Below, piece by piece: positions 35,301-48,532 of a stretch of DNA of 64,000 bases (its first letter is position 1; each line of letters begins with the position of its first letter). The stretch spans positions 200,001-264,000 of the forward strand of contig BSQZ01000069.1 of NCBI GenBank assembly GCA_033239005.1, read 5' to 3'. The notes under the pieces were generated by a model. It was not told where the DNA came from, made no database searches, and saw nothing but the letters and a program-made list of their open reading frames with translations. Origin of the DNA: Lamellibrachia satsuma (lineage: Eukaryota > Annelida > Polychaeta > Sabellida > Siboglinidae). The position numbers and the translations under genes were made by a program.

Positions 35301-38300
35301 GAGTACACAGACTACACACATTTGCCAAGCCTCGCCATGTTGCATATAGGATACTCCGCTACGGTCGTTACACAATGATGAAGTCGTATCTTTCTGCGCA
35401 GTTGCTCACAGGAAACGAAAGGACCGCTGCACGTTGTACAAGTGGTCATCTGAGGTTACGAGAAAGACGGAGATCAACGTGTTACGAGCTCGAATTTTGC
35501 CGTCGGAAGTCAACGACGTTACCATGGTGACCCAGCTAGACGCGTCCAGGTTACCACGACTGGTCGACATGGCAAAACTTTGGAAATGTGAGTACGCAAG
35601 TGCAGTGAACTCAGCGACTAAGCCGATTGGTTAGACCCGAGTGACCTAGCTAGAATATATCTAAGGTTAACTGAATCGTAAACCACAACGTCTTTTATAA
35701 AGTAAAACTAATATACATATGTAGGCTTACCTTTTGTTAATAAATTAACCTTTATGTACAATTGGTTTTTATTACGTTTGCACGTGTCGTAACGATCTAG
35801 CGGCGTTCAGAAGTGAATCTCATTTAAAATCAAACTCATTTTATGCTTAATAAATATTATGTAAATTCATAGTTGGACAATGACACAGAAAGTAATAATT
35901 TGCTAATAAAATACCACACTTCTACCAGAATTTGTGTCCCATTTTGAATAAAATCTGGGCCGCCTCCTAGTGACGTTGTGTAAGAACGGTAGGCACACTC
36001 CCAACAATGGCGCTACGTCATTTCATCACTGCCACAATTTGATTATACATGGCTGGCGAAGTGATCAAAAATCGGTTGACTGCGCAACGCCACTGTTTAG
36101 GTGACAGCATTGGCGCTTCTGAGAGGTGTGCAATAGTTTCACACAAAGAAAACGGATGTTATTGTGTTTCTGGTCAAATTCAACCTAACATACTATTCAA
36201 CATTGGATGCATTTGAAATTAAGAGGCTTTTTGACTAACATTAGGACTTTACCAATTGAAATAAAGATGTGCAAAATATGCACATAAATATAAGTTGTGA
36301 CGGGGATAACGTGATAATTGTTCACGCATGCGTGGAGGTTGAATGGTAAACTCATATTAACAATTGACTTTTCTGCCAGGGCCAATGTCTGTGAGCGTCT
36401 ACGTCAGAGAAGAAGTCTTAGATAAGTACCGCCACGTGTTGACGAAAACCTTCGTGAATAGGACAAACATCGCCATTCATCTGGTCGTCAATAGCAAGGT
36501 GGGTGGAGCGGTGTGTACCGCGGTGGGTGGCGCGGTGGGTGGCTCGGTGGGTGCGGCAGTGGGTGGCGCGGTGGGTGCTGTCAGTGTCTATTCACTACGT
36601 GGCTCTCACATTTCGCGTGAATTGTGGGAAATGCTGTAGACACCAATACTTGGTGACAATGCACATTTGGGCAACGGATCACACAGCCATTTAATAGGCA
36701 AATAGTATAAATACATAATGTATATACATAATGTATATACATATTGTATATACATAATGTAAATACATACTGTATATACGTCCCCATACTTGGTTGTTTG
36801 ATTGTGATTGTGTAAACATCGAACTGCAACATAAAAGCATATTTAGCTTGGACCTAGGTTGAATATATCAATTAGGATTAAAACTAACGAGAACACGTTC
36901 ATGATTCAAGAAATGCGAGTGATAGTTATGAAGAAACCGCCGCGCCATCTAGTGAATGTGGAATGTGTCAGTCCTCTTGTTGGTCATGTGGGATCTTGTA
37001 TAGGGGGGCTTTCACGGTGACGTCAAACACCGATCACGCGATCGTTTCGCGGTGACTGATTAGCAAAACACAGCTGGTTGGTGGGCTTTGTGTGTATTTC
37101 GTCGGATACGTTTCTAGTTTGTTTTGCATTTTATTACGCTTTTACACATGCCTAAAAAAACCATTGTTGTGTCTTGTACAGTTGTAGGATGTGCCAGTCA
37201 CTTTGTGGATTGCTCAATTTCATTTTATAAGAGGGAAAACGAAGAGAACTTTGGCTGAATGCGACCAGATGTGATCGTCGCCAAACGACCGTGTTTGTGG
37301 ACGACATTTCAACTTTTAACCGCTATTAACGGTTAATATTACCAATGGATATATTCCATTCATGACTGTTGGCAGCTGTTTAATAAAATTAAAGCAGAAT
37401 GAACGCCGAAAAAGGAAATGTTCGTAATCTCTGAACCCTGTAACCATAGCCGGCCTACAAGGCTGGCCTAGCCTTGCTCTGGGCCCGCGACCCTGGCTCT
37501 GCGCTGTAATTGACCCCATTCATGGGTGATACATGAACGTTGTTTTCTGGCTAACAAAATCGTTAAGCCCTTTATTTTTATGAAACTAAATTTAATATTT
37601 ATCGTACAACTGTGCTAGTGAGTGATTTATATGCTTTCACAGACTCTCGGCTGAACATGTCTGGCTTCTTCTTCTTCAAAGGCCGTTCTACATGCCGTTT
37701 TGAACGAAATACAGATCTGGTAACTTACTAAAGCCATCACTGTGCTCTAGTTTCTTATTGTAACATTCCCTCACACTGGGATCTAAAACATTGGCGTATT
37801 TAGCCCAGTAGTCATTCATGTTTGCTCGAGCATCGCAAACCATTTTTTAGAGAAAGCTCAACTGGTTAGCGGCTTTTGCCACCCAGCGTACTGCCACTTA
37901 GCAATTGAAATGTTTAGCATTTTTCTGGTGGATTCGCTAGAGGTGTTGTATACATAAACTGTCACTACTGCGCGGGTGTTAGACACTGCACTTAAATGAG
38001 TGCGATTAACACGCGCGATTAACACTTGTCCGACTTTCTTTTGTTAAGCCAATCCTACGCAAACATAATACATATTTATGTCTCACTAATGGCAACCCGC
38101 AAACAGTGAGGCATCTTAGTGGACAATGTCAGCTGTACGCTAAGAATCGTAGTATTTGTCATTGTGAGCGATACTCTTTCAATTGCTATTATAATAAGTA
38201 CACTTGAGTAGAGCCATAAATCTTGACAAAGTCCACTCAGAGCCACTTAAAACACCTAGGTGATAGCATTAATGGGTTAAATAGTGTAATGCCTATATGG

Positions 38301-48532: not shown

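Follow-up and report, generated by a model that had tools for sequence, protein, structure and literature searches.

Mirage-like tandem arrays at exon/intron boundaries of a GT49 gene and of other genes in Lamellibrachia satsuma

Tandem arrays across exon/intron boundaries, termed "mirages", are described in the lancelet genes for Adh3, globins (BflGb6 and BflGb9), troponin C, and PGBD5, in the sections of PMC3087553 and PMC3902484 considered here, which cite Canestro 2002 as the founding mirage paper. According to these sections, mirage units measure approximately 10-160 bp, the AG/GT is kept in many of them, and their copy number is unstable. Somatic length variation is reported for the Adh3 mirages, and normal mRNA splicing despite the additional sites is given as a mirage feature. 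Intron gain through tandem duplication of AG/GT proto-splice sites is referred, in the corresponding section of PMC3087553, to Rogers 1989 and to Gao and Lynch 2009. The original prediction for the locus studied here stated that no system of this kind had been described, a claim that the lancelet mirages overturn.

The window, the whole stretch of 64,000 nucleotides analyzed here, corresponds to C69:200001-264000 in an assembly of 279 contigs and 735 Mb. It contains a gene of 13 exons on the plus strand (26184..48532), modeled using Pfam, a LARGE1 alignment, and paralogue comparison. The gene product matches Pfam PF13896 (Glyco_transf_49) with an E-value of 1.4e-37, and structures of human LARGE1 chains align over residues 125-422 (E 3e-38 and 6e-38); by these matches, the gene is predicted to encode a GT49 (LARGE-like) glycosyltransferase. 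Exons 1 to 5 (E1-E5) span positions 26184-26373, 28255-28302, 29477-29521, 30857-30901, and 34391-34435. Exons 6 to 9 span 35402-35587, 36380-36498, 39901-40058, and 43654-43763, and exons 10 to 13 span 46374-46464, 46765-46892, 47655-47735, and 48466-48532. The end of E9 at 43763 (ACA/GTAAGT) and the start of E10 at 46374 were set from 10 related loci in the same genome. A model with the E9 donor CCA/GTACAG and an E10 start at 46327 was rejected, since in the paralogues the donor at GTAAGT is of phase 2 and the acceptor lies further downstream.

Several other features of the window were recorded. The coding part of exon 1 holds an 18-bp tandem repeat (26211-26262). Exons 3, 4, and 5 are mutually related copies, and a broken additional copy of the small exon 4 (32271-32484), which lacks the 3' end and the donor, merges into a 63-bp array. 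Exon 8 has an A run that is one base short relative to the LARGE1-like frame, reflecting either a recent loss or an assembly error. The single Rfam match in the window is a tRNA-like element (25411-25482, minus strand), which may belong to a short interspersed repeat. At 55763-56207 lies a perfect tandem duplication of 220 bp; it adjoins what we take, by eye, to be a GIY-YIG-like mobile-element fragment (56200-56600). A search of the assembly for COX1 yielded no match, a reverse-transcriptase piece had 3,572 matches, with no name on any of the 120 listed, and among three protein matches the only one with a name was from Capitella, at 38%.

Duplicated DNA, all of it read on the plus strand, touches six of the 24 junctions of the GT49 gene. 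The original prediction named all six, five as boundaries on which an array begins or ends and the E8 acceptor as duplicated once. Exon bases lie inside the duplicated DNA at four of the 24, the E8 acceptor and the E8, E9, and E11 donors, whereas at the E7 donor and the E9 acceptor an array merely abuts the exon, including one exon base and none, respectively. The E9 donor array (43741..44450) has 34-bp units, the first of which includes 23 bases from the end of exon 9 and the donor GTAAGT; none of 500 shuffles equaled the score of its exon side. The first units of the 44-bp array at the E8 donor (40050..41060; TRF core 40109-40912, outer ends set by eye) carry AAAGACCAG, nine exonic bases of E8, together with the donor. 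The self-alignment of this array takes in the junction, and a probe of exon and intron bases was matched in score by 2 of 500 shuffles, the exon side alone by 25 of 500. At the E11 donor (46873..47215), eroded units follow each other at a spacing of about 53-59 bp, estimated by eye, and the first contains about 20 bases of exon 11 and the donor. The best probe match has an E-value of 1.6e-6, and 8 of 500 shuffles equaled the exon side. Default TRF misses this array, and permissive TRF begins it 20 exonic bases inside the exon; the array is real but weak. As predicted, the E8 acceptor is duplicated once, at about 39528..39603, as determined by self-alignment and probe match. This single, separate copy, with 37 exon bases, is positioned about 330 bp upstream within TA runs and is 97% identical over a 70-bp probe; its exon side was equaled by none of 500 shuffles.

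The array at the E7 donor (36498..36586) starts with the last base of exon 7, contains the donor, and is built of 12-bp units with five GGTGGGT copies in a single reading frame. A probe of 20 exon and 8 intron bases was matched in score against this array by 61 of 500 shuffles; the array adjoins exon 7 and does not copy it. The 36-bp array at the E9 acceptor (41203..43653), with about 68 copies according to TRF, has its last base exactly at the acceptor AG. Most of its units finish in an acceptor-like TTACAG, the unit is free of exon bases, and 406 of 500 shuffles scored as well as the 25 exon bases tested against the array. A 33-bp array in intron 9 (44693..46311, plus strand) was excluded from the junction arrays because it stops 62 bp short of the revised exon 10 acceptor. 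Matches at the E3 and E4 acceptors were set aside as old duplications of whole small exons and not arrays.

Copy numbers differ between paralogues. A 15-bp unit at the E7 donor is present once in L010 and L016, twice in L021 and L022, and four times in L020. L010, L020, L021, and L022 are related GT49 genes from one cluster, and L016 is a more distant copy. The unit begins one base inside the intron, and its additional copies in L020-L022 lack the G of the GT. A 33-bp array in the intron interior has 4.6, 3.9, 7, and 19 copies in the same cluster. Copy number is thus unstable, as seen between paralogues and not alleles, and since it varies equally in both kinds of array within the GT49 cluster, junction arrays and intron arrays behave alike.

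Equally clear junction arrays are present in GT49 paralogues and in dynein and SNF-transporter exons of the same genome, so the claim that arrays start or end on exon boundaries, several with exon bases, is borne out beyond the window gene. The GT49 paralogues were represented by 11 places chosen from 19 matches, dynein by 30 loci of 100 matches, and SNF transporters by the first 20 stop-free exons among the 93 matches listed, with flanks of 700 bp. The splice sites of dynein and SNF exons, some of them weak, were placed from domain matches and a human splice-site matrix. Long open frames, a sign of arrays, in several exons of the SNF table were known before the selection; only L054 (C51:256386-258037) of these fell among the 20, and it gave no match. 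The counts leave out L017 (an intron-poor B4GAT1-like gene), the L014 E6 donor, one junction-less L009 match, the L066 acceptor, the acceptors of eight SNF exons in which match and domain begin together, and L020-L022 as related copies of L010.

The cases with a partner within 600 bp comprise six donors and five acceptors outside the window gene. They are the E9 donor (40 bp) and E9 acceptor of L013 and the E11 donor of L018 among GT49 paralogues; the donors of L043 (38 bp) and L031 in dynein; and, in SNF exons, the donors of L065 (39 bp, 13 copies) and L069 (50 bp, six copies) and the acceptors of L053, L055, L057, and L068. Unit sizes among the cases observed range from 12 to 94 bp. An apparent bias towards donors (10, versus 2 acceptors, by strict TRF) was discarded, as the self-alignment set gives 6 to 5. 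The L041 donor has its sole partner 780 bp upstream, with 8 exon bases in it, and was set aside; it becomes the twelfth case when partners up to 1500 bp are allowed. Arrays flank exon 9 on both sides in L013 as well as in the window gene, and the units of the two genes are unrelated. Exon interiors are rarely duplicated in dynein (a fraction of 0.000, rounded, of 5,005 positions) and in GT49 (0.011 of 4,532), and 4.4% of 2,420 positions are duplicated in SNF exons. At C51:172137-175157, C51:2185835-2188159, and C51:257086-259134, several SNF exons lie together in a single open frame of 770-1054 codons that extends over kilobases, which suggests that the introns may be filled with stop-free arrays.

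Arrays occupy 9,550 of the 21,036 intron bp of the window gene, and the expected number of junction hits was therefore calculated by founder-weighted self-alignment. The same rule was applied to every junction and intron position: at least 8 bp on each side and an E-value of at most 1e-3, with low-complexity matches removed. Each position was weighted by 1/(1+copies), which reduces an array to approximately one founder unit. In the window gene, duplications with a partner within 600 bp span 3 of 24 junctions, compared to 2.6 expected; with partners within 1500 bp, the numbers are 5 of 24 and 3.1, and two of the five are old copies of whole small exons. The window gene alone thus gives no sign of non-random placement, and the assertion that chance had been excluded there is unsupported.

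In the other samples, again with partners within 600 bp, 3 of 85 junctions are spanned in GT49 paralogues (1.6 expected), 2 of 60 in dynein AAA_6 exons (2.5 expected), and 6 of 31 in SNF transporter exons (0.74 expected). Together, the junctions outside the window gene give 11 of 176 versus 4.9 expected (Poisson P about 0.012), and 12 versus 5.2 with partners up to 1500 bp. Six settings tried on this total yielded P values of 0.0077 to 0.015; these Poisson values treat junctions as independent, and L010 and L016, which have one E12-donor array in common, are not. Removal of the SNF exons leaves 5 of 145 against about 4.15 expected (rows summed). Edges called by TRF at 169 junctions, with the window gene included and SNF excluded, gave 5 spanning arrays versus 3.5 expected and 7 abutting versus 2.8 (P 0.028 for the two together). 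A lower score limit gave 5 versus 3.6 and 8 versus 4.1 (P 0.052), and permissive settings 12 versus 7.4 and 14 versus 9.1 (P 0.019). TRF edges in GT49 genes only, with all periods included, displayed no clear excess (8 versus 5.7, 8 versus 8.4, and 13 versus 17.8). Arrays at junctions are frequent, and there may be a modest excess, which rests largely on the SNF family; junctions may be favored roughly two-fold, but this is not proven.

We consider it probable (roughly 0.75) that these are mirage-type minisatellites, which originate from blind tandem duplication, change by minisatellite turnover, and are tolerated for as long as the authentic copy of the splice site is preserved. Small tandem duplications with units of 12-94 bp would arise often in this genome and regardless of gene structure. 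Those within exons would mostly be removed by selection, and intronic or junction-crossing ones would survive, because the authentic copy beside the conserved exon may continue to be spliced. We infer that slippage or unequal exchange adds copies on the intron side, which would make the exon edge look like the founder unit. Two observations do not agree well with this scheme. The 11 of 176 spanned junctions outside the window gene indicate that placement may be not fully blind, and the duplicated fraction of SNF exon interiors fits poorly with simple purging from exons.

The excess in the SNF exons and in the total outside the window gene, together with the involvement of both donors and acceptors, would also agree with a duplication process that prefers exon edges, for example through breaks or slippage at composition steps or transcription structures over 5' splice sites. 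However, the preference is little or none in GT49 paralogues and dynein and none in the window gene, and the null expectation varies with how arrays are detected and collapsed, as TRF on GT49 (8 versus 5.7 or 13 versus 17.8) demonstrates. We consider such a process improbable, and the junction-copying process that the original prediction took to be implied is not established.

Selection for redundant splice sites, the other cause proposed originally, would explain why many copies retain a good GT or AG (the window E9 donor, L013 E9, L065, and L069). Read-through from E7, whose copies are in one frame, is stop-free until 36637, and that from E8 is open to 40152, so that a few additional E7 or E8 donors could give longer proteins. 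In contrast, reading on beyond the E9 or the E11 donor runs into a stop only a few bases later, at 43765 and 46894, and none of the upstream copies tested among the 64 that fit the pattern of the E9 acceptor (about 68 units by the TRF count) yields an open in-frame protein. On balance, these stops and closed frames argue against selection for spare sites, as do the additional E7-donor copies in L020-L022 without the G of the GT, and we regard this explanation as very improbable. It is equally hard to believe that the GT49 gene is a pseudogene with junctions free to decay: exon 8 has lost a base of its frame, but the remaining exons are open, the splice sites are usable, and like arrays are found at stop-free dynein and SNF exons. 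Assembly artefacts, in which collapsed or stuttered repeats end at exons by coincidence, are the least credible, since units within one array have diverged from each other, are not the same in different paralogues, and turn up in unrelated genes as well, even though the E8 acceptor copy lies in TA runs that are hard to assemble and E8 is one base short in an A run.

We find it doubtful that tandem duplication in this lineage truly has hot spots at splice junctions, with an enrichment of about two-fold overall and a much stronger one in some gene families. If it had, exon edges would steadily seed new minisatellites, which would enlarge introns and provide material from which new splice sites, exons, and introns could form. 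The cited sections on mirages report them gene by gene, and here 11 of the 176 junctions sampled in genes other than the window gene, about 6%, carry such a duplication. This is a rough frequency estimate, and the E7-donor array has one, two, and four copies in related genes. One genome could therefore serve to ask how the spliceosome selects one of many nearly identical sites, and whether duplications at junctions contribute to the growth and gain of introns.

The present arrays resemble ordinary intronic minisatellites (VNTR) in their units and in the copy-number differences between paralogues, but have exon sequence in their first or last unit. They share with intron gain at proto-splice sites the starting event, duplication across splice-site-like sequence, but the copies here sit within existing introns, and no new intron was seen. 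The closest likeness is to mirages, as both in lancelets and in the present genes a minisatellite-like duplication spans the 5' or 3' boundary. Tandem units containing the boundary are found at the window E8, E9, and E11 donors and in L013, L018, L031, L043, L053, L055, L057, L065, L068, and L069; the window E8 acceptor, with its single separate copy, and the abutted E7 donor and E9 acceptor are without such a unit. The published mirages considered here come from cephalochordates. The present arrays occur in GT49, dynein, and SNF genes and touch up to six boundaries in one gene. As in mirages, donors and acceptors are both duplicated (6 and 5 outside the window gene), and copy number is unstable (1, 1, 2, 2, and 4 at the E7 donor of the paralogues). 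Judged by the features tested, the present arrays match the mirage description, and they are a real, recurrent structure of a known kind.
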